32,411 nt of DNA from Flexilinea sp. (GTDB lineage Bacteria; Chloroflexota; Anaerolineae; Anaerolineales; Anaerolineaceae), in the NCBI GenBank assembly GCA_017432685.1, contig JAFRIR010000002.1:1-32411 (forward strand), given 5' to 3'. Positions 7,591 through 26,189 of this stretch are shown one piece after another. Position numbers and translations under genes: made by a program. Positions within the stretch are counted from its first letter, which is position 1, and every line of letters begins with the position of its first letter. Below the pieces are notes generated by a model. That model worked only from the letters and a program-made list of their open reading frames with translations. It was not told where the DNA came from and ran no database searches.

Positions 7591-7741
7591 TATAATATTT
7601 TAATGAGTATGCCTTTAGGTGAGGTGTATTTTATGTTGGATTTTTATTCGATTGATAATTACCCGGTTTGCCCGACATAATTACCAAATTGCTGATAAAC
7701 TAATATACGGGAATTAAACTCATAAAATACGGAGTTTGTCT
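7591..7741 (+). promoter_or_regulatory. BREX operon control region: -10 box, phased direct repeat, upstream ORF
   Basis: A TATAAT (7591-7596) gives a plausible -10 box without a good -35. Between it and brxA are two copies of ATAATTACC (7655-7663 and 7677-7685), 22 bp apart start to start. That is about two helical turns and suggests an operator. No WYL-type BrxR regulator gene, common upstream of BREX loci, is present here. Confidence 0.4.
7633..7680 (+). CDS. Possible 15-aa leader peptide upstream of brxA
   Basis: ATG at 7633 follows AGGTGAGG (7618-7625) and encodes MLDFYSIDNYPVCPT before TAA. It lies in the 5' untranslated region of the BREX operon and contains the first copy of the ATAATTACC repeat. 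Translation could couple to downstream expression, but there is no run of one amino acid and no clear attenuator. It may be chance. Confidence 0.25.
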   Translation: MLDFYSIDNYPVCPT

Positions 7742-8332
7742 ATGGCATCGAGTGTAAACGAATACAGTATGTCCTTCACGGCAGCGAGCCTGCTGCCGGC
7801 GGAAAGTCTTGCGCTTGCAGACGCTTATGCCGAAACACGGGACTGGGAGCGGACGAAAGAACAGGCGCTGCGCGAAAACCTGATCCAGAAGCGCAGTTAT
7901 TCATCCATCAAGCGTCAGGTCCCGGAGCTTATCAAACGCCTCACAAACCTGAGTGACCCGCAAATCGAACAGCTCGTTTCCGCAAATGATCACGAACAGA
8001 AATATATCCTGTGGCTGGCGGTATGTAAGACTTATCCCTTCCTGAAAGAATTTGCGCAGGAAATCATGTATGAACATTATCACGCGTTCAACAATTGCAT
8101 CACCCCGGCAGATGTCCGCGCCTTCTTTGATTCAAAGGCGATAATCCATCCCAGGCTGCAGGATCTTTCAGTGGAAACACAGAAGAAAGTGATCTCGGAA
8201 ACGATGACACTGCTGCGGCAGTCAGGACTGATCTCAGAGAAAAACGAGATCCTTCCATTGTTCATGACTGCTGCATTGGAAGTCTGCCTGTCAGAAGAAG
8301 ACGAAGAATATCGCAGAATTTATCCCTGCTGA
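7742..8332 (+). CDS. brxA: BREX protein BrxA (DUF1819), 196 aa
   Basis: BrxA is a small, mostly helical core BREX protein; characterised homologues have a NusB-like fold and bind DNA. The N-terminus EYSMSFTAASLLPAESLALADAY fits the family pattern of a short strand then a helix. The middle (YSSIKRQVPELIKRLTNLSD, then KYILWLAVCKTYPFLKEFAQ at about 90-110) matches the DUF1819 body. Length (~200 aa) and position as first gene of the operon agree. I prefer ATG 7742, with CGGAG at 7730-7734, over the in-frame TTG at 7736, which is too close to that site. brxB starts 11 bases downstream, so the genes are co-transcribed. No missing part is evident. Confidence 0.9.
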   Translation: MASSVNEYSMSFTAASLLPAESLALADAYAETRDWERTKEQALRENLIQKRSYSSIKRQVPELIKRLTNLSDPQIEQLVSANDHEQKYILWLAVCKTYPFLKEFAQEIMYEHYHAFNNCITPADVRAFFDSKAIIHPRLQDLSVETQKKVISETMTLLRQSGLISEKNEILPLFMTAALEVCLSEEDEEYRRIYPC

Positions 8333-8343
8333 ACAGAGGTGAG

Positions 8344-8955
8344 ATGAAAAACTATCAAAAGCAAACCATGTCTGACCGTATGGATTACCTGTTCCTGGTG
8401 ATTTCTTCAGAAGATTTTCTGAATCTGAAGGGCGAGACGAAAGAGACCTCCAATTATATCTGTCCCTTTGATCCAAAAGAAGCCGAAACCTTTGCAAAGG
8501 AAACCAGACGCCTGAAGGAAAGGCTTCACACGAACGGCATTGAAGTCTGTATGATCGATCTTTATGACCTCAGTAAAACGATCCTCGAAGAAGAAGGTGC
8601 CTGGGACTCAATCATAGAAGATGAGACCGATTGGGACAAAGAAGAACTGAAAGATATGCTGAAAGGAATGCTTGATCCGAAGGAAGTCCTTGCTCCGCGC
8701 ATTGAAGCAGAGGCAGCAAAGACAGAGCATCAGGTGATCTTTATAACCGGTTCCGGAGCTGTTTTCCCTTACGTCCGGACACACAACCTGATCGAGAGTC
8801 TCGGATCACACAACGCCAAAAACGAACCGATCATAATTTTTTTCCCGGGGGACTACATCGATACACACGCTACCGGCCTGTCGCTGGAGCTCTTTAACAT
8901 GTTCCCGAATGACCGTTATTACCGTGCCCATAATATCTATAACTACATGGAATAG
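8344..8955 (+). CDS. brxB: BREX protein BrxB (DUF1788), 203 aa
   Basis: BrxB is a core BREX protein of about 200 aa of unclear biochemical role, thought to help assemble the complex. The sequence shows the DUF1788 elements: an N-terminal helix with LFLVISSEDFLN, the strand VCMIDLYDLSKTIL (about 76-89), the core strand HQVIFITGSGAVFPYVRTHNL (about 129-149), and the near-terminal strand EPIIIFFPGDY (about 160-170). It begins 11 bases after brxA behind GAGGTGAG and ends 9 bases before brxC. This tight spacing and the order A-B-C are diagnostic of type I BREX. The length is normal. Confidence 0.9.
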   Translation: MKNYQKQTMSDRMDYLFLVISSEDFLNLKGETKETSNYICPFDPKEAETFAKETRRLKERLHTNGIEVCMIDLYDLSKTILEEEGAWDSIIEDETDWDKEELKDMLKGMLDPKEVLAPRIEAEAAKTEHQVIFITGSGAVFPYVRTHNLIESLGSHNAKNEPIIIFFPGDYIDTHATGLSLELFNMFPNDRYYRAHNIYNYME

Positions 8956-8964: not shown

Positions 8965-11900
8965 ATGAAACTAAACGAACTCTTCCTGGATCCGATCGAA
9001 CGACCGATCGATCCCGTCATCAAAGCCGACGACAGATCCCATTTACAAACGGATATCAACGAATATGTGATCACCCGGGAAATTGAAGAAAACCTGGATG
9101 AGTTGCTGGATACTTATATCACCTGGAATGAAGTAAACGGGGTTTGGATCTCGGGCTTTTTTGGTTCCGGTAAATCCCACTTGCTGAAGATGCTGTCCCT
9201 CCTGTTGGAAAACCCCGTGATAGATGGCTTCGAAAACGGGATCAATGAAGCATTCCGTAAAAAGATCGACGAAAGGGAAACGATCCTGAAAGGGAAGATC
9301 CGCCGATTAGTCTCCATCCCGAGTAAGTCGATCCTGTTCAATATTATCCAGGTCAACGATGTGACGGCTAAAGACAAGGACCAGGAGGGTGCCCCTGTTC
9401 TGATCGCATTTCAGCGGGAATTTGATGATTTCTGCGGATACTACGGCAGTCTGCCTCACATTGCCGAAATGGAACGGCAATTGGATGAGAACGGGCAATA
9501 TGAGGTATTCAAAGCAAAATTCAAAGAATTTGCAGGCGAAGAATGGGAAAACGGACGCAGGAAAAACCTGATCTTCTCAGCTGCCATCGATAAAGCCTTT
9601 GCGGCTGCCACGAATCAGGATGAAGTAAAGAACATCCAGAAGCAGTTCAAGGATAATTATCACAATTCCCCGAAGGATTTTGCGGGGAAAGTGAAAACTT
9701 ACATCGACAAGCAGGAGAAAAATTTCCGCCTGAACTTTTTTGTCGATGAGATCGGACAGTTTATCGTTCGCTCAAAGCAGCTGATGTCCATGCTGCAGAC
9801 AATCGCCGAGTCACTGGCCACGATCTGTAAAGGACGATCGTATATCTTTGTGACTGCGCAGGAAGAAATGGATAAATTCATCGGGAACCTGGATAACAAA
9901 GCTCACTCCGATGATTTTTCCACCATTCGCGGCCGCTTCAAGTGCAAAATGCACCTGTCCTCCAAAAACGTCGATGAGGTCATCGAAAGACGTCTGCTGC
10001 GGAAGAAACCGGAACATGTGGAAATGCTGCGCAGCCTTTATCGCACTTCCAACAGTGACTTTCCGACACTTTTCAATTTCTCGGATGATTCGATCTCTTT
10101 CAAACTTTATGAGAATGAAGATGACTTCATCAATAAATATCCCTTCGTTCCCTACCAGTTTGACCTCTTCCAGCAGATCATTCTGCAGTTTTCCGATCAG
10201 AACGTCTTTGAGGGAAAGTTCAGTTCCGTCGGTGAGCGCTCCATGCTGGACGTCTTCCAGAAAGTGCTGATAGCGCTGAAGGATGAAGAGATCGGCGTGG
10301 GCGGCACGATCGTCCCGTTTTTCCGCACCTATGACGGTGTTCAGTCAGATCTGATCTCCGCTTACCGCAGCGCCATCAACCTGGCCTCCAAAAACATGGC
10401 CGAAGACCCATTCACGGTGAATATTCTCAAGACCCTGTTCCTGGTGCGGTTTTATGACAAGTTCACCTCAAACGAAGGTAATATCCGCATCCTGATGGAA
10501 AACCATCTGGATCAGGATCTGCCAAAGCTCCGCGAACAGGTCCACAATTCACTGGTGAAACTGGAGAAGAACAATTACATTCAGCGTAACGGTGATACCT
10601 GGTCCTTCCTGACCGATGAACAGAAAGAGATCGAAAACGACATACAAAACAAGATCACCATCGACGACAGTGATATCGGCAGTGAGCTGAAGAAGCTGCT
10701 TTTCGATTCGATCCTGAACCAGCCTGCCATCCGCTACGACAAAACAGGACGGGATTATAAATTCACGAAACTTGTCGATGGGTTCCCGTATTCGCCCACT
10801 GTGGACCTTTCGGTGAACATCGCGACAACCTTTAATGATGATATTGACCATCCCGATACCCTGGTCTCCCATTCATTTGGGAAGAAAGAACTGCTGATCA
10901 TCCTGCAGCGGGATGACAACCTTGAGCAGGACCTCCGGCATTACCTCAAGACTGCCCGATATCTGACCTATAACTCTCAGCAGACGCAGAGCCCTGCCCG
11001 CAACCAGATCCTGCGGGATCTCGGGGCACTCAACAATAACCGCCGGGAAGAGCTGAAAAACCGTCTGAGTGATGCACTGAAAGCCGCCAAGTGGCTGCCG
11101 AACGGGGCCGAAGCGGAAATTATGCCGGCAGATCCGAAGGCAATGCTGCAAACTGCTTTTATCCGCCTGATCGAGCTTGTTTATCCGAACCTGCAGATGA
11201 TCGTCAACAAGACTTTCAGCGAGAAAAAAATCAAAGATATCCTGAATGCGGGTCCGGAACTGCTTGAAACGCAGCTGACCGTAGAGGAAAGAGATGTCCG
11301 CAATTATATTGGCAATCAGCATGTCAAGAACCCGCCGGTCACTATTAAAGACCTCATGGATCAATACACCGCAGACAGTTACGGCTGGTACACGGAAGCT
11401 GTTCAATGCATTCTTGCCCGTCTGCTGAAAGTCGGAAAAATCGAACTGTATCAGGACGGGACGGAAGTTGCGGAAAAGTATCTGTTCGGAGCACTGACGA
11501 ATTCGAGATTTTTCAATGCTGTACAGGTCGTTCCGCTGAAGGATTACGATAAGCGTGCCATCCGGGAGCTGAAAAAATTTTACGAAGACTTTTTCTCGAA
11601 GACTGTCTCAACTGAGGACCCGAAAGAGCTGGCAGCATTGGTTCGCGGGCAGTTTGATGAGCTGATGAAAGACCTTAATGACTGGCTGAACGAACAGGAC
11701 AAGCTGGCGGCATTTATTCCGAAAATCAAGGGTGCCCGGCAGATGATCCTGCCATCCTATGGGAAAAGCAATGATTATTATCTGAACGATCTCGCGGATG
11801 AGTATGAAACCCTGCTCGGACTGAACCGGGACTTCCTAAGCGATTTCAAGGCTTTTTATAACGGGAACCAGTATGCGATTTACAAAAACGCCGCAGAATT

Positions 11901-12549
11901 TCTGGACCGCGAATCAGACAACCTCAGTGAACTGCGCGACAAAACAGCGATCGATGAACTGGGCAGCAGGCTTGCGGATCCGGAATGTTACCAGAACGGC
12001 GGCATTCCGCAGATCAAAAAACTGCACGCTTCTTTGCAGAACCGCATCAGTGAAATGCTTATTGAGCTGCGGCAGCGGTATTGCCGCAATGTCGATGAGC
12101 TGGAAAAACAGCTGCAGTCCCAGGGGGAATATGTGGATCTGACGGAAGAGCAGAAGCAGACGCTCGCGGCCAAATACGCCGAAGCAAAACAGACCATCAA
12201 TCAGCAGAACAAGGCATGGGTGATCCGCAGCACTTTTGAGAATTTCAGCAAGGGACAGACGACCCGCCTGAACGAAATGAGCAATTGGGCGAAAATCAAT
12301 AAGGAGTCAGTTACGCCGGAGCCTCCGAAACCTCCAGTACACGAACCGGATGGTACAGGAAGTGTATCAGGTGGTGGTACGGTCAAACAACCGGAATCAC
12401 CGCAGCCACAGGTAACTTATGTCCAGGCACGGCAGCTGGTTCATTCCAATGCCATCCTTTCTACAGCGTCTGATGTCGATGAATATCTTGAAAAGCTGCG
12501 TAACGCCTATATGCAGGCCATCTGCGAAGGCAAAAAGATCCAGCTGTAA
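8965..12549 (+). CDS. brxC: BREX P-loop ATPase BrxC (PglY-like), 1194 aa
   Basis: BrxC is the large P-loop ATPase of BREX, required for both host methylation and phage exclusion. A Walker A motif GFFGSGKSH is at residues 64-72. A Walker B is at NFFVDEIGQF (257-266), with D261 and E262 as the acidic pair. After it, IFVTAQEEM carries a likely sensor strand, and FPFVPYQFDL-type sequence near 391-400 is typical of the family. The C-terminal half is helical and charged. It ends in a Pro/Gly-rich linker (about 1117-1150: PEPPKPP, GGGTVKQPE) before a last helical segment. The length of ~1200 aa is standard. GGAGG lies directly upstream of the start. The next gene begins 68 bases later, so the insert cassette follows without a visible terminator. 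Confidence 0.95.
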   Translation: MKLNELFLDPIERPIDPVIKADDRSHLQTDINEYVITREIEENLDELLDTYITWNEVNGVWISGFFGSGKSHLLKMLSLLLENPVIDGFENGINEAFRKKIDERETILKGKIRRLVSIPSKSILFNIIQVNDVTAKDKDQEGAPVLIAFQREFDDFCGYYGSLPHIAEMERQLDENGQYEVFKAKFKEFAGEEWENGRRKNLIFSAAIDKAFAAATNQDEVKNIQKQFKDNYHNSPKDFAGKVKTYIDKQEKNFRLNFFVDEIGQFIVRSKQLMSMLQTIAESLATICKGRSYIFVTAQEEMDKFIGNLDNKAHSDDFSTIRGRFKCKMHLSSKNVDEVIERRLLRKKPEHVEMLRSLYRTSNSDFPTLFNFSDDSISFKLYENEDDFINKYPFVPYQFDLFQQIILQFSDQNVFEGKFSSVGERSMLDVFQKVLIALKDEEIGVGGTIVPFFRTYDGVQSDLISAYRSAINLASKNMAEDPFTVNILKTLFLVRFYDKFTSNEGNIRILMENHLDQDLPKLREQVHNSLVKLEKNNYIQRNGDTWSFLTDEQKEIENDIQNKITIDDSDIGSELKKLLFDSILNQPAIRYDKTGRDYKFTKLVDGFPYSPTVDLSVNIATTFNDDIDHPDTLVSHSFGKKELLIILQRDDNLEQDLRHYLKTARYLTYNSQQTQSPARNQILRDLGALNNNRREELKNRLSDALKAAKWLPNGAEAEIMPADPKAMLQTAFIRLIELVYPNLQMIVNKTFSEKKIKDILNAGPELLETQLTVEERDVRNYIGNQHVKNPPVTIKDLMDQYTADSYGWYTEAVQCILARLLKVGKIELYQDGTEVAEKYLFGALTNSRFFNAVQVVPLKDYDKRAIRELKKFYEDFFSKTVSTEDPKELAALVRGQFDELMKDLNDWLNEQDKLAAFIPKIKGARQMILPSYGKSNDYYLNDLADEYETLLGLNRDFLSDFKAFYNGNQYAIYKNAAEFLDRESDNLSELRDKTAIDELGSRLADPECYQNGGIPQIKKLHASLQNRISEMLIELRQRYCRNVDELEKQLQSQGEYVDLTEEQKQTLAAKYAEAKQTINQQNKAWVIRSTFENFSKGQTTRLNEMSNWAKINKESVTPEPPKPPVHEPDGTGSVSGGGTVKQPESPQPQVTYVQARQLVHSNAILSTASDVDEYLEKLRNAYMQAICEGKKIQL

Positions 12550-12617: not shown

Positions 12618-13883
12618 ATGCTGCTCCAATTCAGAATAAAAAACTACCGCTCATTTCGGGATGAAACCATGTTAGATATGACTGCAACAGACATTGCAGA
12701 GCATACAGAAACACTTATTCATTTCGACAATGAAAAAATCCTTCCCATTACTGCCATTTTTGGGGCAAATGCTAGCGGTAAGACAAACATTGTCAGCGCA
12801 TACATGGTTATGGCTTTCATGGTTCAACACTCTCTCGAATGGTATGACGAGACAGACAGCGAAGGTAATATAATTGGACACTTCGTTTTGTCCGAATACT
12901 ACCCATTTGCTTTTGATCCGGAGACAAAGGATAAAGACATTGAATTTGAAGTATGGTTTACTTCAAAATATGATAAGGAAGAAATCACATTTAATTACGG
13001 ATTTTCATGGAATAAGAACCGGATTCATGAAGAATGGCTGAACAAAAAAAATAAAAATACTGAAGAATACAGTCCTGTTTTTTTACGGCAAGAGAAGAAA
13101 TTAACCACTTTTTCTGAAGATATTCCTGAATCTGGAAATGAGATTATCCGAGACGCATTGTCACCTCAAATGCTCGTGGTTTCTCTCGGTGCGAGATTGA
13201 ATTTTAAAATACTGCAAAGTGTATATCGCTTCTTCCAGACAACCCAGGTGTTATACCCAAAAGGCGGTGTTGATATTCGTGTGCCTTACATGTTCAAAAC
13301 AGACAAGAATGTTCAGAACCAGGTTTTACGTTATTTGCAGGCATTTGATGACAGCATTGTCGGTTTTGAAATTGACGAATCTCTCCATTCTGCAAATGAA
13401 TACAAGAACATTTTCACCTTACATAAATCCATCGGAAGCCAAACGCCATCACGGATTCCCCTCGAAGAGGAATCTACAGGAACGCTGCGAATGTTCAGTC
13501 TTTACCGAAACTTATTTGCCGCAATCAATAATGGAGGTGTCTTGTGGATGGATGAGATAAATTCCCATTTACATCCCCTCCTCGTTCGCAATCTGCTTCT
13601 GAACTTTATTGATCCGGGGCTCAATCCACTTCATGCACAGTTGATTTTTACAACACATGATCCCTGGATGTTGGAAAATGGTTTGCTGAGAAAAGATGAA
13701 ATATGGTTTGTTGAAAAGGATACTGAAGGTATATCCGATCTTTATTCACTGGCGGATTTCAAGAATATCGGTGGGGATGACAACGAAAAAAGCTATGCCA
13801 AAAGATACCTGCTTGGGGAATTTGGAGCAATTCCTGAATTAAACACTTTGGTTCTTTATCCGGAGTATAGCCATGGCTCATAA
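12618..13883 (+). CDS. rloA: AAA/ABC-type ATPase, RloA/AbiLi-like, 421 aa
   Basis: The protein is an ABC-type ATPase of the OLD/RloA group. It starts LLQFRIKNYRSFRDETMLDM, the classic N-terminus of this group. It has a Walker A GANASGKTN (49-57), an ABC-signature-like ESTGTLRMF, a Walker B VLWMDEI (308-314, with D312 and E313), and the switch histidine in FTTHDPWML (H347). It starts behind GGAGG and overlaps the next gene by 11 bp, so the two are translationally coupled. With the RloB partner it should form an abortive-infection pair, in which the ATPase senses phage and activates the partner. It is related in logic to, but distinct from, the PARIS AriA-AriB pair. Its position inside the BREX operon is a known hotspot for passenger defence genes. 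Whether it acts alone or with BREX is unknown. Confidence 0.85.
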   Translation: MLLQFRIKNYRSFRDETMLDMTATDIAEHTETLIHFDNEKILPITAIFGANASGKTNIVSAYMVMAFMVQHSLEWYDETDSEGNIIGHFVLSEYYPFAFDPETKDKDIEFEVWFTSKYDKEEITFNYGFSWNKNRIHEEWLNKKNKNTEEYSPVFLRQEKKLTTFSEDIPESGNEIIRDALSPQMLVVSLGARLNFKILQSVYRFFQTTQVLYPKGGVDIRVPYMFKTDKNVQNQVLRYLQAFDDSIVGFEIDESLHSANEYKNIFTLHKSIGSQTPSRIPLEEESTGTLRMFSLYRNLFAAINNGGVLWMDEINSHLHPLLVRNLLLNFIDPGLNPLHAQLIFTTHDPWMLENGLLRKDEIWFVEKDTEGISDLYSLADFKNIGGDDNEKSYAKRYLLGEFGAIPELNTLVLYPEYSHGS

Positions 13884-14499
13884 AGGTGAACGAAAAACGC
13901 GCAGTGCACGTCCCGAACGGATCCCGAAGTTGGGCCGGTATGTTATTGTAACGGATACGGATGAGACAGAGAAAAACTATTTCGAAGGGCTAAAGGCCAA
14001 TCTCCCGGAGGCTTCCCGGAATCAGCTCGAAATCGTAGTTAGGAAATGCACAACACAGGAACTGGTAAAAAAGGCCTGCGAAGAGATGCTGCGCGCGCCT
14101 AAATATGCTCAGATTGTCATTGTCTTCGACCGTGACGATGTCAGGAATTTTGATACGATCATTCGTGATGCGGAAAAACAAGATATTTTTGTTGGTTGGT
14201 CAAACCCCTGTTTTGAAATCTGGATGCACGCCTACTTTGGTGAAATGCCGCCGTCAGATGTTTCCAAAACCTGCATCGCGAAATTTTCACGCTCTTTTAT
14301 GGAAAGGAGCGGAGGCGAATATGCCAAAAGTGATAAAAGGATTTATGAGAAGCTGACCCGTTATGGCAATGAGGAAACTGCAATAAAAATCGCAAAGAAC
14401 AGATATCAAAGTTATAAGGGAACAGCAAAACCATCCGAAATGAATCCTTGCACTGCCGTTTGGCAGATCGTGGAAGAAATAAAAAACAAGTCGGAGTAA
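13873..14499 (+). CDS. rloB: RloB/AbiLii-like protein, 208 aa
   Basis: RloB-family proteins are about 200 aa and are encoded beside RloA ATPases in restriction and defence loci. They are thought to be the effector, with a Toprim-like core. The features expected are present: RYVIVTDTDETEKNYFEGL (22-40) with the conserved E-x-x-YFxG; the acidic IVIVFDRDD (81-89); and SNPCFEIWMHAYF (110-122), where the S-N-P-x-F-E-x-W block is strongly conserved in the family. The N-terminal 16 residues are basic. The start ATG overlaps the end of the ATPase gene. The following gene starts 8 bases after its stop, so this cassette probably continues. Nuclease activity is inferred from the family, not visible as such. 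Confidence 0.82.
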   Translation: MAHKGERKTRSARPERIPKLGRYVIVTDTDETEKNYFEGLKANLPEASRNQLEIVVRKCTTQELVKKACEEMLRAPKYAQIVIVFDRDDVRNFDTIIRDAEKQDIFVGWSNPCFEIWMHAYFGEMPPSDVSKTCIAKFSRSFMERSGGEYAKSDKRIYEKLTRYGNEETAIKIAKNRYQSYKGTAKPSEMNPCTAVWQIVEEIKNKSE

Positions 14500-14507
14500 T
14501 AGCTTCA

Positions 14508-15584
14508 ATGGCGGATGAAATTGTTATAAAAGACGATGATATCGTCGAAATCAAAAGAAAAAAAGACGACGGCCTGATCGAAATATCAAATGACGAACGG
14601 GTTTTTCATCTGAATGATGAGCCGGGTGTTGACACGGAGGACCTGTTCGGAAAGATCGCCGGATTGCTCCGTATGGAAGATATTATTAAAAATGTTCAAA
14701 AAGGTGTTCATTTCGTCGTGAAGATTCCGGAACAATTCATTGAAGCCTATAACCGCGGCGATCTTAAAATGCTGGAATCACAGGACGGAACGAACTGGGC
14801 TTCCTTATATAAAATCAACGAATCGGGACGATATGAATTTGTAGCAAATTTGCCCGTTCAGGAAGAGTCATTCATTCAGGGAAATCCGTTCCAGGACTTT
14901 TCCGCAAACCTGCAAACGATGATGATCCAAAAACAGCTCTCAGCGCTGAAAGAGGCAATCAAGGATGTCGCTGAAACGGTACAGCGTATTGAACAGGGAC
15001 AAACAGATGACCGGATCGGGCTGATCATTTCCGGACGAGATCAGATCATTGCTGCTCTTGAAAATAAAGATCCTGAAGCCCGGAAACGTGAACTTGAGCA
15101 TGGCAGGCAAAGTCTCAATGATGGCCGCAGCCAGGTGTTTACGACGCTTTCCACCCGGGCAAGCGCGTATGAACCAATTCCCGGGAATAAATTTAAGTTC
15201 TATTTCAAACGATTGAATACAAAATATTCGCCGAAAAGAGAAAGGGATTTTTATTCCGTTCAGGACTATTTTGATCTTTATATGGATGCTACCAAAACGC
15301 TTGCCGCTTCTTACGCGATCGAAGGAGACATGGAACGGGCGAAAAGTACGATAGAACGCGCAGCCCGGGACCTCAGCAGGATTGATTTTGAAAATGTATC
15401 CACCATCAGGTACCTGCACCCTAAAAGGGACAATTGGTTCTTTGAAGATTCCCCAAACCTGATGAAGGACGAGGCAACTGAGTGCATAGAAAGCACAAAA
15501 AAATATGATTGCTTTCTGTTGGAAGTGCCTGCAGAAAAATTATTACCGGAAGGAGAGGATGATGACAGAGCGAAGGAAATTTGA
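14508..15584 (+). CDS. Unknown protein of the BREX insert cassette, 358 aa
   Basis: I do not recognise a family. Seen in the sequence: an acidic, strand-rich N-terminus (ADEIVIKDDDIVEIKRKKDD); a strand HFVVKIPEQFIEAY (about 68-81); a charged heptad-like helix QLSALKEAIKDVAETVQRIE (about 124-143) that could be a coiled coil; and a helical C-terminal half with a TPR-like look (ASYAIEGDMERAKSTIERAARDL). There are no membrane segments and no recognisable nuclease or NTPase motif. I take ATG 14508 as start, because an upstream in-frame ATG at 14448 lies deep inside rloB; the GGAG at 14492 is 12 bases away, a long spacing. Its end overlaps the next gene by 23 bases. Coupling to a small membrane protein suggests a sensor-effector pair, which is inference. 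Confidence 0.7.
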   Translation: MADEIVIKDDDIVEIKRKKDDGLIEISNDERVFHLNDEPGVDTEDLFGKIAGLLRMEDIIKNVQKGVHFVVKIPEQFIEAYNRGDLKMLESQDGTNWASLYKINESGRYEFVANLPVQEESFIQGNPFQDFSANLQTMMIQKQLSALKEAIKDVAETVQRIEQGQTDDRIGLIISGRDQIIAALENKDPEARKRELEHGRQSLNDGRSQVFTTLSTRASAYEPIPGNKFKFYFKRLNTKYSPKRERDFYSVQDYFDLYMDATKTLAASYAIEGDMERAKSTIERAARDLSRIDFENVSTIRYLHPKRDNWFFEDSPNLMKDEATECIESTKKYDCFLLEVPAEKLLPEGEDDDRAKEI

Positions 15585-15832: not shown

Positions 15833-18800
15833 ATGAACAATCGAGCGCTTGAGACGTTTGCCGTGTGGGCGCGACGGGAATTGATGAAGGGGTGCCGGGA
15901 GCGGCTGCAGTATGTACTTTCTCATGAACGGGACCCGGAGTTCGCGGAGCACGCGGGCAACATCTCCATCCTGAAGCGGGAAGCCAACGACTCCTATATC
16001 GAAAAGGCGGCCTACACCTGGTTCAACCGTTTTGTCGCCTTCCGCTTTATGGATGTGCGCGGCTTTTATTCCCAGCGGGTGCTCTCTCCTGAATTTGATG
16101 ACGATCCCCGGCCGCAGCTGCTCACGGACGCCGTGGAAGGCGCCACTCCGAAAGCTCTTTCCCCGCGGGAACGTGATCGGGTGCAGAAATTGCTTGCTGG
16201 CCAGCTGCCCTCCCGCGATTCTCAGGCGGAATCCTACCGCATCCTCTTCCTCTCGAAATGCCGCGAGCTGCAGAAGAGCCTTCCCTTCCTCTTTGACGCG
16301 GTCAACGCCCCGATGGAGCTGCTGCTGCCGGATGACCTGCTCTCCCCGCAGTCTGTCCCCGCCAAACTGCGCACGGTGATGGATGAAGAAGCCTGTCAGA
16401 ACGTGGAAGTGATCGGCTGGCTCTTCCAGTTTTACATTTCAGAGAAAAAGGCTGACATCATGAAGCAGAAAGGCGCCGTCTCCGCGGCAGACCTGCCTGC
16501 ACGGACCCAGCTCTTCACCCCGGAATGGATCGTCCGCTACCTGGTGGAAAACTCCCTCGGCCGCCTCTGGCTCGAACACCATCCGGAATCCACCCTCGCG
16601 GATCATATGCGTTATTATCTGAAACCAGCCGATGGGGAAAACAAATCACTCCTCACTCCTGACTCCTCACTCCTAACTGTCGAGGAGCTAAAGCTCCTCG
16701 ACCCTGCCTGCGGTTCCGGCCACATCCTCGTTTATGCCTTTGAGCTGCTGACGAAGATCTATGAGGAAGAGGGGTACGGGAAGAAGGAGATCCCGGCGCT
16801 GATTTTGCGGAACAACCTCTTCGGGCTGGAACTGGATCCCCGCGCCGGACAGCTGGCCGCCATGGCGCTTTTCTTCAAGGCCTGCATTTATGATCCTTCC
16901 TTTTTCGCCCGGGTGACCGGGGCGGCTGACGAAGAGCGGCAAAAGCTCGAACCGCAGATCGCGATTTTGGAGAACATCCGCTTCAGCGCCGAGGAACAGA
17001 AGGATTACAGCCGCATAATCGGCAAGACGCTCATCACCCAGGACCTTTGGCTGCTGATGCGCCAGTTTGAGGACGCCGAGTCCCTCGGCAGCCTGATCAT
17101 CCCGGCAGCGGCCAATCTGAGCGCTATCGAAGCCGCCATCCGGAATTCCGGTGTGATGGAAAACCTGCTGATGGCTCATGTCAACGACAAGCTGCGGAAG
17201 CTGCTGCGCCTCGCCCGCTTCCTTTCCCCACGCTATCAGGTGATCTGCGCGAATCCGCCCTATCTCGGCAGCAGCAACCTCGATGAGGATGTTAAACGGT
17301 ATGCGCAGGATCATTTCCCCGACAGCAAGGCAGATTTATTGTCAATGTTCATGGAACGCGGCTTGCAGCTGACGCTTCCGGGAGGATATTCCGCTATGGT
17401 CACCATGCAGAGCTGGATGTTCCTTTCTTCTTTCGAGGCAATGCGGAAAAAACTGCTGAAATCGAAACATCTGGTATCTATGGCGCACATCGGTCCCCGC
17501 GGCTTTGATGCCATCGGGGGAGAAGTCGTACAGACCACCGCTTCTGTTTTCCAAAACCGGCATGATCAGGAGAATTGGGGTGATTATTTCCGCCTGATCG
17601 ATGGTGCCAATGAAGCCGGAAAAGAAAATATGCTGCTTCAGGCAATCGAAAATCCAAAATGCGGCTGGTTCTACCGCACAAAAGCCGAAAACTTCAGCAA
17701 AATCCCCGGCTCTCCAATTGCGTATTGGGTAGGAGAAAAAGCAATATCAGCATATGATAACTGCCAGTTATTGGGTAAAGTCGGACAATCGACTAAAGGG
17801 ATCATAACGGGTGACAACGACAGATTCATGAGATTATGGTGGGAAGTTCAACCACATAAAATCAAATATAACGCTAATAATTACATAGACGCTGAAATTT
17901 CTGAAATGAAATGGTTTCCATGTGCAAAAGGTGGAAACTATCGTAAGTGGTATGGAAATAAAGAATATATAATAAATTGGAAGAAAAATGGAAAAGAAAT
18001 CATTATTGATGCCAAAAAAGATAAAAGACATTCTCAAGATTACTACCCACAATTAAAGTTTCAAAGCGGAATATCATGGAGTTCCATTACTTCAAATGCA
18101 TGTTCTTTCAGATATGAAAAAAACAATTTAGTTGAATCAGCTGGTATGGCGATTTTTCCGTATCATGTAGATCAATTAAAACAAATACTTGGCTTTTTAA
18201 ATTCGTCTGTATGTGCATTTTACATGACTTTTTTATCTCCTACTTTGAACGTTAAAATCGGTCATATAGAAAATCTTCCTTTCATCGAGAACGTTGAAAA
18301 TAATCAATTTATTAATAATATTGTTAGTAATTGTATAGTTATATCGAATTTGGATTGGGATTCATTTGAAACCAGTTGGAACTTCATTGAGCATCCATTT
18401 GCGAAATCAGACATCAGACGTCAGACGTCAGAATCTGAAGTCCGGAGTCTGAAGTCTGACGTCTCTATACGTCTCGAAGACTGCTGGCTTGCCTGGCAGC
18501 AGGAGTGTGAGGAACGGTTCCGGACGCTTAAAGCCAACGAAGAGGCTCTGAACCGTATTTTCATTGATATTTACGGCTTGCAGGATGAGCTGACACCGGA
18601 GGTGGAGGACAAGGATGTTACTGTGCGTCGGGCGGATCTGGGACGGGAATGCCGCTCGCTGGTCTCCTACGCCCTCGGCTGCGCCTTCGGCCGCTATGAT
18701 CCGAAAAAACCCGGGCTGCAATATGCCGGCGGACCGGAAACCAATTCGGAAATCGGAAATCGGAAATCGGAAATTCCCGTCTATCTCTCTGTCCTGGATG

Positions 18801-19327
18801 ATGAGTATTCCGAAAGCGATGCCGTACGGCAGGTCAAGCAGTTTCTGCGGGAGGTCTACGGGGAGAAATATTATGTGGAAAACCTGCACTTCCTGGAGGC
18901 CGGTCTCGGCAAGGACCTGCGGTCGTACCTCCGCAATGACTTTTATGCCGACCACCTGAAGATCTACCAGAAGCGCCCAATCTACTGGCTCTTCCAGAGC
19001 CCCAAGGGCAGCTTCCAGGCGCTCATCTACCTTCACCGCTACAGCTCCGGCACCGTCGCCGCCGTCCAACAGGCCGCCCGGGATTACTATAACCGCCTCG
19101 CCGGTCAGGCCGCAGCCCTGAAAAGCCAGGCAGATAACGCCGCCGGTGCAGAACGCCGCAAAGCCGAAAAGCAGCTCACCGCTGTCCAGTCCGCCATGAC
19201 CGAAGTCAAGACCTGGGAAAAGGATGTCCTCGCCCCCCTCGCCGAAGCCCGCATCGAACTCGATCTCGACGACGGCGTGAAGGTCAACTACGCCAAATTC
19301 GGTGAAGCCCTGGCGAAGATAAAATGA
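15833..19327 (+). CDS. pglX: BREX adenine-specific DNA methyltransferase PglX, 1164 aa
   Basis: PglX methylates adenine (N6) at the BREX recognition site, marking host DNA as self. SAM-binding motif I DPACGSG is at residues 290-296 and catalytic NPPY at 474-477 (CANPPYLGSSN). The gene starts behind GGGGAGG (15821-15827). From about residue 634 to 857 (nt ~17735-18404) base composition becomes clearly AT-rich with a different codon use; this is where the target-recognition region should lie. Three heptanucleotide tandem repeats are embedded in frame: at 16647-16674 (residues ~272-281, just before motif I), 18406-18461 (right edge of the AT-rich block), and 18746-18773 (coding the repeat SEIGNRK). 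Seven is not a multiple of three, so loss or gain of one unit would shift the frame. In the present state the frame is open for the full length and both catalytic motifs are intact. Confidence 0.95.
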   Translation: MNNRALETFAVWARRELMKGCRERLQYVLSHERDPEFAEHAGNISILKREANDSYIEKAAYTWFNRFVAFRFMDVRGFYSQRVLSPEFDDDPRPQLLTDAVEGATPKALSPRERDRVQKLLAGQLPSRDSQAESYRILFLSKCRELQKSLPFLFDAVNAPMELLLPDDLLSPQSVPAKLRTVMDEEACQNVEVIGWLFQFYISEKKADIMKQKGAVSAADLPARTQLFTPEWIVRYLVENSLGRLWLEHHPESTLADHMRYYLKPADGENKSLLTPDSSLLTVEELKLLDPACGSGHILVYAFELLTKIYEEEGYGKKEIPALILRNNLFGLELDPRAGQLAAMALFFKACIYDPSFFARVTGAADEERQKLEPQIAILENIRFSAEEQKDYSRIIGKTLITQDLWLLMRQFEDAESLGSLIIPAAANLSAIEAAIRNSGVMENLLMAHVNDKLRKLLRLARFLSPRYQVICANPPYLGSSNLDEDVKRYAQDHFPDSKADLLSMFMERGLQLTLPGGYSAMVTMQSWMFLSSFEAMRKKLLKSKHLVSMAHIGPRGFDAIGGEVVQTTASVFQNRHDQENWGDYFRLIDGANEAGKENMLLQAIENPKCGWFYRTKAENFSKIPGSPIAYWVGEKAISAYDNCQLLGKVGQSTKGIITGDNDRFMRLWWEVQPHKIKYNANNYIDAEISEMKWFPCAKGGNYRKWYGNKEYIINWKKNGKEIIIDAKKDKRHSQDYYPQLKFQSGISWSSITSNACSFRYEKNNLVESAGMAIFPYHVDQLKQILGFLNSSVCAFYMTFLSPTLNVKIGHIENLPFIENVENNQFINNIVSNCIVISNLDWDSFETSWNFIEHPFAKSDIRRQTSESEVRSLKSDVSIRLEDCWLAWQQECEERFRTLKANEEALNRIFIDIYGLQDELTPEVEDKDVTVRRADLGRECRSLVSYALGCAFGRYDPKKPGLQYAGGPETNSEIGNRKSEIPVYLSVLDDEYSESDAVRQVKQFLREVYGEKYYVENLHFLEAGLGKDLRSYLRNDFYADHLKIYQKRPIYWLFQSPKGSFQALIYLHRYSSGTVAAVQQAARDYYNRLAGQAAALKSQADNAAGAERRKAEKQLTAVQSAMTEVKTWEKDVLAPLAEARIELDLDDGVKVNYAKFGEALAKIK
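16647..16674 (+). repeat. Heptanucleotide tandem repeat in pglX, (C/G)ACTCCT x 4
   Basis: Four contiguous 7-bp units read CACTCCT, CACTCCT, GACTCCT, CACTCCT, followed by a diverging AACT. In frame they encode a Leu/Ser/Thr/Pro stretch (SLLTPDSSLLT) just ahead of SAM motif I. Confidence 0.9.
18406..18461 (+). repeat. Inverted pair of heptanucleotide repeat blocks in pglX
   Basis: Units ATCAGAC, ATCAGAC, GTCAGAC, GTCAGAA (18406-18433) are followed directly by TCTGAAG, TCCGGAG, TCTGAAG, TCTGACG (18434-18461), which approximate the reverse complement. All eight units are 7 bp, so the block can fold as an imperfect hairpin. It sits exactly where AT-rich sequence returns to normal composition. Confidence 0.88.
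18746..18773 (+). repeat. Perfect heptanucleotide repeat in pglX, TCGGAAA x 4
   Basis: Four identical copies of TCGGAAA are contiguous at 18746, 18753, 18760 and 18767. Three units equal 21 bases and encode the seven-residue repeat SEIGNRK; here the product reads SEIGNRKSEI. A perfect non-triplet repeat in a coding region is a candidate slippage site. Confidence 0.93.
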
Positions 19328-19914: not shown

Positions 19915-20113
19915 AGTCAATTATTAGATGAGATTTAGATGAGAATTCAGATGAGATAATTTTAAGATTTATGAAAATTTGCAGTTTTTACTCATAATAT
20001 TAAAGAAAAGATTTCTTGTCTAATAATATAAGAAAAAATTTTATAAGTCAATCTTTAGTCAATCTGTAAAGATGATGGGGGTGGACAGTTCTATTCTAAG
20101 GGGTAATTGGCAT
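19915..20113 (+). promoter_or_regulatory. AT-rich pglZ upstream region with phased direct repeats
   Basis: Three copies of a 10-mer, TTAGATGAGA (19924-19933), TTAGATGAGA (19935-19944) and TCAGATGAGA (19947-19956), are spaced 11 and 12 bp apart. AGTCAATCT also occurs twice, 11 bp apart (20046-20054 and 20057-20065). Helically phased repeats before pglZ suggest a protein-binding site. A weak promoter TTGTCT (20016) - 18 bp - TTTATA (20040) may start a separate pglZ transcript. Confidence 0.4.
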
Positions 20114-22660
20114 ATGGGCACGCCTTTTGAAATAATGGTATCTAATCAGATGAAAGCGCACCGGGTACTGTTCTGGTATGATCCGGGCGGAGAGCACCGC
20201 AGCGACTTCGATGAGATTTGGGCACAGGATTATGAAAAACGAGTGATCGAAAACAATGAGTACGCCCTGAAATATGAGATCCTGCGAGTCAAACCGGAAA
20301 CGAAGTTCCTGCTCTATTCGGCATCCGCAGAACCGGAGCCGATGGAAAACTGGCTGCTGGACGTTCTGCTTGCCAACGGCAGGTTCTACGCGGACGAAAA
20401 GGGTGCCTGGCTGAACGACCTGAAGCTTGACACAAAATGGATCCCTTTCCTGGAACGCTACGCGCTCTTTTTCAAGAACGCCAACAATCGGGAACGCCTG
20501 AAAGCCCGTCTTGAGGAGAGCCTGCCAAAGGACAACGAGGATATGTTCCGCAAATGCTGCGCGGTACAGCTCGGCAGCGTTGGTGTAAGCCGGGATGATC
20601 TGGTGCTGAAGCTGATGAGTGACTGCATCCGTTCCGACCATAAAATGGAAAAAGCCCTGCAGAGCACCGGACTCGCGGAGCATTTCTGTGAGCAGCTGAA
20701 TGACATTTATGGTTACAAAACCGATGTACCGGACGCTGAAGACCTGGTATTGAGCTTCTTCAAAGATGAATACACCCGCCAAAAAGGCGGCAAAGCAGCG
20801 CTCACGAATGAAGCGCATCTGCTGATAAATCGCTGGAAAAACAATACGCAGAACCTTTCTTATTTCCGCAAGATCTCCGGATGGGCGGCCAGACAGCTGC
20901 AGATCGAAGGCGAATTAGAGGAACTGGACGCGGAAACGCTCATCAATATCGACGTATTTCTGGATGCACAGATGTTGGTGTTGGAAAAGGCCGCCGCGGA
21001 CTTGCAGAGCGGGGCATTGCTCGATGAAAAGCTGCTGCGTTCCCTGTCTGAACCCGCTGCCGGGCCCTGGGCAGAGCAGCTTGCGGATGTCCGGGACGCT
21101 GTGGCTGCCGCGGCCCGCTTCAATGAGGCACTGAACAGCTTCCGGCCGCTGATCAATACTTATGAAGACGGTTTCCGCAAGTACGTCACGGATTGGTTCC
21201 GTATTGACCGTTATTACCGTCAGTTTGAAACAGCCGTACGCAAGAGTTCGTCGGATGCCATTTCCGACTCACTTTATCAGGCATTGGAAACACTGCAGGG
21301 GGCCCTCCGCACAGCTTATGAAAGCCGTTACCTCCATCCGCTCAGCCACAAATGGCAGCAGATCATCCGGGAGGATGACGGACGGAAATGTACCGCTTTC
21401 AATCGTCAATGCGATTTCTATGACAACGCCTTTGGCCCTCGTCCGTTGAAACGGAAGACGGTCGTGATCATCTCGGATGGGATGCGCTTCGATATCGGCC
21501 AGGAACTGGCGGAGAAGATGAACGGCACCGACAGGTACAGCGCTTCCCTGCAGGCCATGCGCGGCATACTTCCCTCTTATACGCCCCTTGGGATGGCAGC
21601 ACTGCTTCCGCACAAATCCCTTGAATTGAAAGCTGACGGTAAAGTCGTTAAAGTGGATGGCAAGAGCAGTTCCGGCATTGACGCCAGACGGGCGATTCTG
21701 CAGAGTTACAATGCGGAAGCCGACGCGCTCAAAGCAACTGAGATCATGGAGCTGAGCACGGAAAAGCTGAATGCCCGCCTCAAAGGCGTCAGGCTGCTTT
21801 ACATCTATCACAACGAAGTCGATGAAGAGGGCGATGATAAGGAGACCGAACTGGGGACCTTCAAAGCCGCTGAAGAACTGCTGGATGAAAGGAGCGGACT
21901 TCCCGCGCTGATCCGCAAATGCGTCGGGGTGAAGTTCTCTCAAATCTATGTCACGGCTGATCACGGTTTTCTCTTCCAGTTCACGCCGCCGGATCCCAGC
22001 ATGTTCCCGGTCAACGATCCGCCAAAAGATCGCACCACATATTACCACCCGCGTTTTGTCATGGGCACAGATCTGGAAGATCAGCCGGCCCTGATGAAAA
22101 TCGAACCGCAGGGCTACAGCGCGGAAACCGATGTCTATGAAACAAACGGCGAACAGCGCCTGCGGCTGAGCGGTGCAGGGAAACGTTATGTCCATGGCGG
22201 CACTTCGCTGCATGAAACGGCGATCCCGCTGGTGAACATCGAATATAAGACCGAGCACATCAATCAGAAGGTCCGCGTCTCGCTTGCCAACAACACGGAA
22301 AAGCGCATCATCACCACTTCCGTCAAGACCGTCGTCTTCTTCCAGCAGGATCCGGTCCGGGAATATGATCCGATGGAACCGGACAAAGAGGAGATCCAGC
22401 CGCTCACCGTGACTGCCGGCTTTTATGATCCGGAGACGGGTGAGGCAGTCAGTGATGAACCTGTGATCACCTTCAATCTGACCGAACCGGAAGACCGTCT
22501 GCGCCAGGTGCAGCAGAACTTCACCTTCGGAAATAACGCCGTCGGCATCGGCAAAAAGGTGGAACTCCGTCTGACAGAGCAGTTGAGTGCCACTCAGACC
22601 CATACACAGACGCTGGGTGTTTACACGCTCCGGCGCATGATCCAAAATGACTTTGATTAA
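20114..22660 (+). CDS. pglZ: BREX alkaline-phosphatase-superfamily protein PglZ, 848 aa
   Basis: PglZ is the hallmark BREX protein with an alkaline-phosphatase-like metal-binding core; it acts with PglX and BrxC. The N-terminus AHRVLFWYDPGGEHRSDFDE carries the family's FWYD motif. The metal-binding strand VVIISDGMRFDIG (450-462) contributes D455, and YVTADHGFLF (612-621) gives D616 and H617. The C-terminal ~200 residues form the strand-rich domain usual in the family. The length is normal (~850 aa). I prefer ATG 20114, with AAGGGG (20098-20103) 10 bases upstream; an in-frame ATG at 20072 would add 14 residues that look unlike the family and has no good ribosome binding site. It is separated from pglX by a 786-bp AT-rich gap and so may have its own promoter. 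Confidence 0.94.
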   Translation: MGTPFEIMVSNQMKAHRVLFWYDPGGEHRSDFDEIWAQDYEKRVIENNEYALKYEILRVKPETKFLLYSASAEPEPMENWLLDVLLANGRFYADEKGAWLNDLKLDTKWIPFLERYALFFKNANNRERLKARLEESLPKDNEDMFRKCCAVQLGSVGVSRDDLVLKLMSDCIRSDHKMEKALQSTGLAEHFCEQLNDIYGYKTDVPDAEDLVLSFFKDEYTRQKGGKAALTNEAHLLINRWKNNTQNLSYFRKISGWAARQLQIEGELEELDAETLINIDVFLDAQMLVLEKAAADLQSGALLDEKLLRSLSEPAAGPWAEQLADVRDAVAAAARFNEALNSFRPLINTYEDGFRKYVTDWFRIDRYYRQFETAVRKSSSDAISDSLYQALETLQGALRTAYESRYLHPLSHKWQQIIREDDGRKCTAFNRQCDFYDNAFGPRPLKRKTVVIISDGMRFDIGQELAEKMNGTDRYSASLQAMRGILPSYTPLGMAALLPHKSLELKADGKVVKVDGKSSSGIDARRAILQSYNAEADALKATEIMELSTEKLNARLKGVRLLYIYHNEVDEEGDDKETELGTFKAAEELLDERSGLPALIRKCVGVKFSQIYVTADHGFLFQFTPPDPSMFPVNDPPKDRTTYYHPRFVMGTDLEDQPALMKIEPQGYSAETDVYETNGEQRLRLSGAGKRYVHGGTSLHETAIPLVNIEYKTEHINQKVRVSLANNTEKRIITTSVKTVVFFQQDPVREYDPMEPDKEEIQPLTVTAGFYDPETGEAVSDEPVITFNLTEPEDRLRQVQQNFTFGNNAVGIGKKVELRLTEQLSATQTHTQTLGVYTLRRMIQNDFD

Positions 22661-22728: not shown

Positions 22729-24816
22729 ATGAACGCGACAGATGAAAAACTAAATGAAGTTTTCGCCGGACTGGTGGTCCGCAAAGATTTGGCCAAGATC
22801 GTCAAAGGCAACGTCTCCGTCCCGAATTATGTGCTGGAATATCTGCTGGGGCAATACTGCGCCACATCGGAAGAAGAAGATATCCAGGCCGGTGTGGAAC
22901 AGGTGAAAGACATCCTTGCACAGCATTTCGTGCAGCGCAGCGAGGCAGAACTGGTCAAGTCCACCATCAAGGAACGCGGCCAGCACCGTGTGATCGACAA
23001 GATCCTGGTCAGCCTGAATCAGCGCAACGACTGTTACGTCGCGGAATTTTCCAACCTCGGCATCAACAACGTCATCGTGGAGTCCAGTACGGTCAAAATG
23101 TACCCGAAGCTGCTGGTCAACGGTGTCTGGTGCCTGGTCAACCTGACTTATGATCATTCTGAAGATGTCACCGCAGTTCCGTGGGTGATCAAATCGCTGA
23201 AGCCGATCCAGCACGCCAACTTTGACATGGACAGCTACCTGGAAGGACGTGCCGAATTTACGCTGCAGGAATGGATCGATGTGCTGGTCCGCACGGTTGG
23301 TTTTGAACCGGATATGCTGAATGAGCGGAACAAGCTCTTTATCCTGACCCGCCTGATCCCCTATGTGGAGCGGAACTATAACCTGATCGAACTGGGGCCG
23401 AAGGGTACCGGTAAAAGCCACATTTATTCGGATTTTTCTCCGCATGGCATCCTGCTTTCCGGCGGTGAAGTCAGCATTCCGCGGCTTTTTGTGAATAATA
23501 CCAACGGCAGGCTCGGGCTCGTCGGCTATTGGGATACGATCGCATTCGATGAATTTGCCGGCAAGGACAAAAAACCGCCCAAAGCGCTGGTCGATATCAT
23601 GAAGAACTACATGGCGAATAAATCTTTCTCCCGCGGCAACGAGATGCTGAGCGCGGAGGGTTCCTTCGCCTTTGAAGGGAACACCTCACATAACGTCCCT
23701 TATATGCTGCGCTACAGCGATCTCTTCGACGATCTTCCGACCGCCTATCATGATTCCGCGTTTATGGATCGTCTGCATACCTACATACCGGGCTGGGAAG
23801 TCAACATCATCCGCAGCGAGCTCTTTACCTCCGGTTACGGATTCATCATTGACTATCTGGCGGAAGCCCTGCGGAACCTGCGCAAGGTGGACTTCAGCGC
23901 CGAATATGAACAATACTTCGAGGTGTCCAATACGCTTTCCACCCGTGATAAGGAAGGCGTACGGAAGACTTTCTCTGGACTGATGAAAATCCTCTTCCCG
24001 GGCGGCGGGGCAACCAAAGAAGAGATCGAGAACCTGCTGCACTTTGCCATAGAAGGCCGGAAGCGCGTTAAGGATCAGGAGATCCGCATCGATGCCACTT
24101 TCGCTGCGGTCGACTTCAGCTATCAGGATAAGGATACCGGCGAGATCAAGCCTGTGAAAACGATGGAAGAGATCCGCTTCCCTGAATACTATTATCAGGT
24201 CGCAGTCGATGAACAGCAGCCGGAGACCCCAAAAGCGGAAGATGCGACTCAACCGGTGCCGCAGAAACCTGCCGCGGAACAGCAGCCGGCTGAAACTCCG
24301 AAAAGCAAATATCCCTATCCGTCAGGAACGAGGATCGATTTTGAAGATTATCAGATCGGATTCAGCTATGAAAAGTATTTTGGTCCTTATTTTGACGGGG
24401 CGAAAGATATTCAGATCGTTGATCCGTATATACGTCAGCTGCATCAGTGTAAAAACCTGATCGAGCTCCTTCAGTGCATACTCCGTCATAAGGATCCTTC
24501 TGAGGAGGTTCTCGTAACGCTGACTACCGGCATGGAGCAGGATCCGCTTTATTATGACAGGCAAAAAGATAATCTTGAGCAGATTATCAGCATCTGTAAA
24601 GCGCAGGGAATCGATTTTGACTATAAATTTGATGACAGCATTCATGGACGGGAAATTGAAACAGATACCGGCTGGAAGATCACTCTGGACCGGGGGCTGG
24701 ATGTTTTCATGAATACCGGTGAAAAACCCAATGAGATATTCTCTTTTGCTTCCGGAATGCAGGAAGTACGGCTTTTGAAGAAATTCTATATCATTTATAC
24801 GAAGATCAACGACTGA
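22729..24816 (+). CDS. brxL: BREX AAA+ protein BrxL with an MIT_C-type C-terminal domain, 695 aa
   Basis: BrxL is a multimeric AAA+ DNA-binding effector needed for phage restriction. The N-terminal two thirds are typical: [16 protein letters not shown] near the start, Walker A GPKGTGKS (223-230), Walker B IAFDE (271-275), and a conserved FEGNT segment after it. A Pro/Gln/Ala-rich linker (about 492-530) leads to a C-terminal domain (about 535-692). In place of the family's Lon-protease-like part it reads like the MIT_C (MITD1 C-terminal, phospholipase-D-like) domain: [29 protein letters not shown] (565-573), then [11 protein letters not shown] (639-649) and the RGLDVF element. I see no Ser-Lys Lon dyad context. 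MIT_C domains bind ligands or membranes and generally lack PLD activity. It is co-transcribed with pglZ (68-bp gap) and with the next gene (17-bp gap). Confidence 0.92.
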
Positions 24817-24833: not shown

Positions 24834-26189
24834 ATGAAAATCGGGAAAACAACAATCACGACGGTATTACACGATATCACGAAAATCGATTCTGTCACAG
24901 CAATTGTAAATGCGGCAAATAAAACACTTCTTGGCGGCAGCGGTGTAGATCATGCTATCCATGAAGCGGCAGGGAAGGAACTGTTGGCAGAATGCCGAAC
25001 GCTTCACGGCTGCGAAACAGGTGAGGCAAAGATTACCGGTGCTTACAATTTGCCCTGCAAATATGTGATCCACACTGTCGGACCGATCTGGAATGGCGGA
25101 AGACAAAACGAAGCGGAATTATTGGCAAATTGCTATCGAAATTCACTGCAGCTAGCGATGGAAAATGGGATCCGAAGCATTGCCTTCCCGTCAATCTCTA
25201 CCGGAGTTTATTCCTATCCGATCGATCAGGCTGCAAATGTGGCTGTTACTGCTGTTTGTGAATTTGTCAGAAATCATCCGGATGCGATGGATTTGATCGA
25301 ATGGGCCCTGTTGACTGATCACACCAAATCATATTACGATGCTGCAATATCAAAAGCTGGGGAAGAGCAAACATCTATGTCAGACGTTACCTATGCAAAC
25401 AATAAAGTTATCGGTTTTTACCATGAAAATGAAAAATATGGCTGCTTCAGCAACTGGTATCCAGCGGAATTCGATTACGCCGGAAAGCATTACGCTAATT
25501 CTGAACAATTCATGATGTACCAGAAAGTGATGATGTTCTGTCAGTTTGATCTTGGACAGAAAATTCTATCCACAAGTGATCCCAAGGAATGTAAGGATCT
25601 TGGCAAAACCCATTTTCCGGAATTCATCCCGGCAGTGTGGGAAAAAACCTGCTATCGGATCGTAAGACGGGGTGTTCGGGCTAAATTCCAACAGAACAGG
25701 GACATACTTGATATTTTGCTGGGTACCGGGAATGCGATCCTTGCGGAATGCTCACCGACCGATACAAAATGGGGAATCGGCGTTGATATCAGCAGCCCGG
25801 CACGGTACGATGTCAGAGAATGGAACGGAAAGAATTACCTCGGTATGATCCTGATGGAAGTGCGAGAGGAACTGCGCCTGGAGCTGATGCTTTCAGGTAA
25901 CGGTGAGCTTAAATATACTGATTTCCACGATGCCGAACCGATTCCGGAATGGAATATGCGGGCAGGTATGTTGAAACGGATTCCTCAATACTATAAAGCG
26001 ATACATGCTTACAGCGATACGCTTGACTGGCAGGAGAAAAATGCCTTTTACAATGGCGAACTGTACCGGGGATGGGAGGAGGCTATGCGTGAGAACATGG
26101 GTGGCGGCCTGCCGTTTGCCGGTTTCTATGAAATGAAGCAGGATATATATGAGATAGCTCGAAGGTTGGAATTGCTGGCAATCGGGTAA
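24834..26189 (+). CDS. Macro domain - NADAR domain fusion protein, 451 aa
   Basis: Residues 1-175 are a MacroD/YmdB-type macro domain: IVNAAN (24-29), [10 protein letters not shown] (34-43), VIHTVGPIW (78-86) and [12 protein letters not shown] (118-129). Residues ~190-345 are a NADAR (YbiA-like) domain: [20 protein letters not shown], then [12 protein letters not shown] with the conserved Glu224, and [13 protein letters not shown] (332-344). About 105 more C-terminal residues are unassigned. Macro domains bind or remove ADP-ribose, and NADAR enzymes have been reported to reverse guanine ADP-ribosylation of nucleic acids, as in DarTG1-type antitoxins. No DarT toxin lies in the window, so this protein may be an orphan reversal enzyme or counter phage or host ADP-ribosylation. 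It starts behind GAGGAAA, 17 bases after brxL, so it belongs to the operon. Confidence 0.88.

Follow-up and report, generated by a model that had tools for sequence, protein, structure and literature searches.

A heptanucleotide array in a Flexilinea BREX methyltransferase gene as a probable member of a genome-wide repeat class

The TCGGAAA repeat found late in the pglX gene of a Flexilinea type I BREX cluster is best explained, with a probability of roughly two in three, as one member of a lineage-specific, genome-wide class of heptanucleotide (heptad) arrays; within PglX, the class would have expanded in frame where loops tolerate it, and no dedicated switch would be involved. Under this explanation, degenerate heptad arrays, mostly with a C[CT]NA core, would have multiplied in this Chloroflexota lineage, mainly at gene edges and probably by repeat copying. 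Those within pglX would be tolerated because they fall in protein loops of variable length, and arrays would be retained by selection only at lengths compatible with an open frame. The TCGGAAA repeat (array D) would then be a young, pure array at one loop, and array C of the same gene an older one, common to three species. Accidental OFF cells are nonetheless likely, given that slippage by one unit would truncate PglX.

The BREX cluster and the arrays of pglX

The window, meaning the whole stretch of 32,411 nucleotides that was analysed, is one contig (C43) of a MAG-like assembly, G000, of 3.97 Mb in 151 contigs, 87.5% complete and with 4.7% contamination. All six genes of a type I BREX cluster are present together in it (Table 1), and the repeat does lie in the BREX methyltransferase gene, as the initial annotation had it. 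Its four copies were placed exactly, at 18746-18773, and the perfect period runs one base further. The three additional arrays of pglX listed in Table 1 were absent from that annotation.

Table 1. Features of the window discussed in the text
Feature	Positions	Strand	Details
brxA	7736..8332	+	
brxB	8344..8955	+	
brxC	8965..12549	+	
pglX (brxX)	15833..19327	+	BREX type I adenine methyltransferase, 1164 aa; NF033452, 1225 bits (cut-off 500); frame intact
Array A in pglX	16646..16678	+	TCACTCC/TGACTCC x4.7; residues from 272 (SLLTPDSSLLT)
Array C in pglX, left part	18406..18432	+	ATCAGAC/GTCAGAC x3.9; residues from 858
Array C in pglX, right part	18434..18464	+	Degenerate TCTGAAG/TCTGACG x4.4, inverted relative to left part; TRF only, 79% matches
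Array D in pglX	18746..18774	+	TCGGAAA x4; codes residues 972-981 (SEIGNRKSEI)
pglZ (type A)	20072..22660	+	
brxL	22729..24816	+	

With four units pglX is open over its full length, in keeping with the earlier statement that this number gives the intact frame, and by frame arithmetic the gain or loss of a single unit breaks it. The predicted products are 1039 aa after loss of one unit, 991 after gain of one, 984 after loss of two and 1046 after gain of two, so that the truncation once announced for about residue 980 is right as the position where the frame breaks. An intragenic tandem repeat with a frame-shifting unit is the first hallmark of a slipped-strand contingency locus, and array D has it. 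The array also ranks among the purest in the genome sample described below, where a perfect run of at least 28 bases occurs in 12 of the 139 arrays, and could for this reason slip.

The protein is homologous over nearly its full length to the type I BREX PglX/BrxX of PDB entries 8c45 and 9ewz, which differ from it in lacking the heptad-derived inserts of loops A, C and D. The C-terminal domain of E. coli BrxX is reported to span residues 838-1205, with DNA-touching residues and a metal site that includes D997, D999 and D1012 (PMC11842806). Judged from the alignment with BrxX, a change of one unit would remove everything after about residue 981, approximately the last half of this domain. Array D itself corresponds to a loop that aligns poorly with BrxX and, by our own counting along the alignment, would lie at or beside the D997/D999 loop.

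A chance origin of array D is ruled out by codon shuffling: a perfect period-7 run of at least 29 bases appeared in none of 1000 synonymous-codon shuffles of pglX, which yielded on average 0.04 arrays per gene, and a period-7 array of any kind appeared in 1 of 1000 codon-order shuffles. The 28-mer has a single occurrence in the assembly (reversed control, none), and three TCGGAAA units with up to two mismatches have no second site anywhere in it. At a score of at least 9, three of the four pglX arrays are called, with no other period-7 array in the window; the right part of array C, whose score falls short of the genome-count threshold, is not called at this level.

A genome-wide class of heptad arrays

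The abundance of such arrays was assessed in 78 further stretches of the assembly which, together with the window, make up 1,162,689 bases or 29% of the genome. These stretches are the first 20 kb, or all, of contigs C1-C79 and hence not a random draw, and two of them are more than 10% unreadable. At a score cut-off of 12, this sample contains 139 period-7 arrays against 5 at periods 2-6, 8 and 9 together (none at periods 2, 4 and 8, one each at 3, 5 and 6, and two at 9). Among longer periods there are 2 arrays at period 10, 4 at 11, 12 at 12, 1 at 13, 7 at 15 and, corresponding to two heptads, 19 at period 14. The first 18 stretches (305,470 bases) alone hold 45 period-7 arrays and none at periods 2-6, 8, 9, 11 or 13, and first-order Markov copies of these 305 kb hold none at period 7. 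Extrapolation suggests about 475 period-7 arrays in the whole genome. Most of the arrays are intergenic, with 121 of the 139 lying outside ORFs of at least 80 aa, though such ORFs cover 89% of the sample. Both marks of a genome-wide class, an excess over neighbouring periods and a mostly intergenic location, are therefore seen in this assembly.

The 18 intragenic arrays are spread over 13 ORFs, three of them (four by TRF) in pglX. In a Pfam scan of the 12 other ORFs, nine had no match and three had a match with the array at an end: in two cases (L162 and L203) the array precedes the likely true start of an ABC-transporter-family gene, and in the third (L222) it encodes the C-terminal end of a dTDP-sugar epimerase. 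The nine unmatched ORFs comprise L129 and L224, which in our judgement look antisense, together with L120 and six short ORFs. Within the sample, pglX is thus the sole gene assigned to a recognised family whose arrays are internal and not terminal. Its outlier status points to some particular cause and lends the idea of a switch its strongest support. It also counts against the tolerance argument, as plain tolerance should have put arrays into more genes: none of the 12 other ORFs both belongs to a recognised family and has an internal array, and 13 of 13 loci of other methylase or specificity genes carry no array.

These loci come from a separate search, in which a general link between heptads and restriction-modification genes was tested for and not found. 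Seventeen loci were fetched for their N6_Mtase and Methylase_S matches in G000 and in the related genome G013; four proved to be pieces of the two pglX genes, and the other 13, at seven places and some with the gene in part only, had no array at score 10. The stretch surrounding an Eco57I place on contig C3 of a second relative, G012, was likewise without an array (a place on contig C85 of G000 was left out).

A shared core and the polarity of array pairs

The units of these arrays are diverse, with 46 distinct consensus units among the first 91 arrays and 63 among all 139. Aligned over strand and rotation, the 91 arrays share the pattern YNYCTNA (C 0.91, T 0.80, A 0.90), whose core information amounts to 5.18 bits as against 3.70-3.79 in 10 position-permuted controls. 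The relaxed core C[CT]NA, or TN[AG]G as reverse complement, is found in 118 of the 136 arrays outside the window (shuffled mean 54, maximum 68), and strict CTNA in 100 of the 136 (mean 35, maximum 50); the core was both derived and checked on one genome, G000. All four pglX units contain C[CT]NA, and three of them strict CTNA, the exception being TCGGAAA. This exception, together with the lack of any other TCGGAAA array in the assembly, counts against the preferred explanation of array D.

Neighbouring arrays less than 150 bp apart form 30 pairs with a marked polarity. Writing '-' for the TNAG type and '+' for the CTNA type, from left to right, 23 pairs are '-+', six '--', one '++' and none '+-', and in 20 of the 23 '-+' pairs both arrays lie outside ORFs. 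A laxer threshold on a smaller sample gave 22, 7, 0 and 0. The left arm is the purine-richer one in 27 of the 30 pairs, and both tests are independent of ORFs. Seventeen pairs are more alike when inverted, seven when direct and six are tied, which shows that in many pairs one arm is no close copy of the other. Base pairing alone does not account for the polarity, since a simple hairpin would permit '+-' equally.

A polarity is also seen relative to genes: among arrays no more than 60 bp from an ORF, 86 have the CTNA strand reading into the gene and 11 have it pointing away, as against 9 and 15 at greater distances. This second polarity is confounded, as units in one orientation hold stop codons and help to set the ORF ends. 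In the BREX stretch of G012, with four arrays outside ORFs, it is the opposite (three away, one into the gene), and in G013 polarity is weaker, with seven into and two away within 60 bp and pairs divided into four '--' and three '-+'. Within single arrays, such as L129 11834-11906, the unit can be seen by eye to drift stepwise from end to end with the position of the core kept, as if each unit had been copied from its neighbour.

Distribution among relatives

The heptads are patchily distributed. No array was found in 200 kb of G004, a single-contig genome of the same genus, and four were found in 200 kb of G047, from the same order. In G012, six arrays lie in the 19.9 kb that surround the BREX genes, as against one in 220 kb elsewhere. 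In G013, 220 kb yielded 19 arrays, and the BREX stretch of 19.9 kb yielded none at score 12. Among 20 further single stretches of relatives, two contain arrays, 16 have none and two were unreadable. In 80 named pglX loci (of 157 relatives; 999,902 bases) there are nine period-7 arrays, in four loci, and seven at period 12. Three copies of AAATAAG, the commonest unit, occur 97 times in G000 and in none of the other 399 genomes searched among 400 of the phylum (reversed control, 0), a result that applies to the AAATAAG unit only. In one of the pglX loci, that of Desulforhopalus vacuolatus, two heptad arrays inverted relative to each other (L071 1410-1450 and 4624-4686), with 27 bases exactly in common, flank a segment of some 3.2 kb located directly upstream of pglX.

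The contrast within G012 suggests a heptad-rich donor as the source of its BREX island. Extended to the window, this would make the pglX arrays passive relics that arrived with a horizontally acquired island, and the failure to find TCGGAAA elsewhere in G000 fits such an arrival. No donor is needed, however, as G000 is itself heptad-rich, and G013, for all its 19 arrays in 220 kb, has a BREX stretch that is empty at score 12. The donor reading is doubtful for these reasons; it is in any case compatible with, and not exclusive of, the growth of a resident class in tolerant loops.

pglX in related genomes and the question of a switch

Full-length PglX relatives were found in three of the 14 same-genus genomes searched: G000, G012 and G013. 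By alignment, the G012 protein is 62% and the G013 protein 57% identical to that of the window. The nearest named pglX relative is on a contig of the uncultured Chloroflexi bacterium RUG11948, with 57% identity in the best segment, and this contig contains the G012 locus. Heptad-derived inserts are present in all three genes, and all three frames are open. At loop A, G013 has AACCTGA units and G012 a longer, degenerate insert. At loop B, inserts occur in G012 and G013 (the latter by eye) and the window has none. At loop C, both relatives carry inserts of TCAGAAA type, matching the window in position and orientation. The array at loop D is found in the window only. The called inserts of the G013 gene score just 11, below the cut-off of the genome counts. 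As loop C is common to three species and loop D is filled in one, the former looks old and the latter young. Between species array C shows point changes as well as differences in length, and five more distant PglX proteins that were aligned (of 79 other loci) have shorter or different loops at A, C and D.

The initial annotation had proposed array D as a candidate phase-variation switch. In a dedicated switch of this kind, slippage in array D (and in A and C) would switch full-length PglX between ON and OFF in part of the population and so limit the cost of BREX. Part of the proposal stands, namely the frame-shifting intragenic unit in four pure copies, with truncation within the C-terminal domain, and it gains from the outlier position of pglX and the inserts in three species. 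Phase variation of pglX has also been reported as common or possibly frequent (PMC11341690; PMC9122589), and a heptad precedent is described for neuO of E. coli K1, whose AAGACTC repeat switches with 3-53 copies and for which ON/OFF mixtures were measured (PMC13001214). Array D resembles neuO in its 7-bp frame-shifting unit within a coding sequence, and AAGACTC holds CTNA. It differs in that the neuO repeat sits in the 5' region, whereas array D lies late in pglX, is known here from one sequence and, with four copies, falls at the low end of the neuO range. The part of the proposal that gives way is the dedicated role: the genome has many arrays of this class, the majority of them outside ORFs, array C varies by point changes too, and among the three full-length genus orthologs, all in frame, no OFF or variable allele was seen, although each species is represented by a single assembly, in which a minority of OFF cells would go unnoticed. 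A selected switch is thus unlikely, and the in-frame growth of array D as part of the genome-wide class remains the preferred explanation.

Other mechanisms

A further possibility, quite improbable on present evidence, is that the arrays do not arise by plain slippage but through a sequence-specific activity that builds C[CT]NA heptads at intergenic edges with fixed polarity, PglX being the sole protein-coding target that keeps them and thereby has a built-in frame switch. Such an activity can be pictured, speculatively, as the addition of TNAG-type units to the 3' end on either side of a break, followed by rejoining, in a telomerase-like or hairpin-copying manner. If it exists, the frame switch of PglX could remove the last part of the C-terminal domain and uncouple restriction from methylation. 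An assembly or chance artefact, which the MAG-like nature of the assembly might invite, is next to negligible in view of the codon shuffles, the frame open over 1164 aa and the period-7 excess across the sample.

Comparison with known heptad repeats

In a 2007 survey, heptanucleotides are reported to have outnumbered every other category of long simple repeats in most genomes (Mrazek, cited in PMC4679880). Known examples include TAACTGA in Beggiatoaceae and some Cyanobacteria (PMC4679880), GGGAATC in Xanthomonas and GGGGA(T/C)T in Nostoc/Anabaena (PMC4692102), and MTYCTGA and GGGACCG in Geobacter metallireducens (PMC2700814). The arrays of G000 resemble what is described of these in the unit of seven, the many genomic sites, the mainly intergenic location and the patchy presence in relatives (PMC4679880, PMC4692102). 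Paired or opposed repeats are mentioned for the heptads of Xanthomonas (PMC4692102) and Geobacter (PMC2700814), and those of Xanthomonas and Nostoc are described as keeping a fixed orientation where they lie within 50 bp of an ORF end (PMC4692102), which on our reading seems to match the polarity in G000. The units TAACTGA, MTYCTGA, GGGAATC, GGGGATT and GGGGACT can be read as containing C[CT]NA, but GGGACCG cannot, so this core is not universal among known heptads. Heptanucleotide repeats of the Nostoc tRNA-Leu intron are reported to base pair and fold as a hairpin in the P6b element (PMC3488679); they are degenerate like those of G000 but concern one intron locus, whereas the latter are dispersed and mostly intergenic.

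Unlike known heptad repeats, those of G000 comprise 63 consensus units that share little beyond the core, and several arrays lie inside one defence gene. A literature search over titles, the beginnings of abstracts and selected passages found no paper on such arrays in Anaerolineae or Chloroflexi, and none on heptads in pglX. The combination of a multi-unit class with one core, a strong polarity of pairs and a presence within one defence gene in three species appears to be new.

The class itself is of more interest than array D. What looks like a phase switch can be the local representative of a repeat class that spans the genome, and this makes phase-variation calls from one genome risky in heptad-rich lineages. 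With one core, dozens of units, polar pairs and presence or absence between species, the class offers a test bed for the long-open question of what makes 7-bp units so frequent in the longer microsatellites of bacteria.

Neighbouring genes of the BREX cluster

Several other genes of the window were noted beside the BREX genes. Between brxC and pglX (12618-14499), an AAA ATPase (PADLOC AbiLi, 271 bits; AriA-like) adjoins an RloB-like protein (AbiLii model, 79 bits), and the two are a possible accessory defence pair inside the cluster. The interval between the RloB-like gene and pglX holds an ORF of 378 aa (14448-15584) that matches no Pfam, NCBIfam or PADLOC model. Immediately 3' of brxL, a fusion of a Macro domain and a NADAR domain (24834-26189) matches PADLOC PDC-M42C and falls below the cut-off of the NCBIfam NADAR anti-phage model (58 bits vs 240). 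Downstream of the cluster lies a restriction-like protein with a GmrSD N-terminal domain (26346-27536), and elsewhere in the window, at 2080-3186, a Fic-domain protein is encoded.
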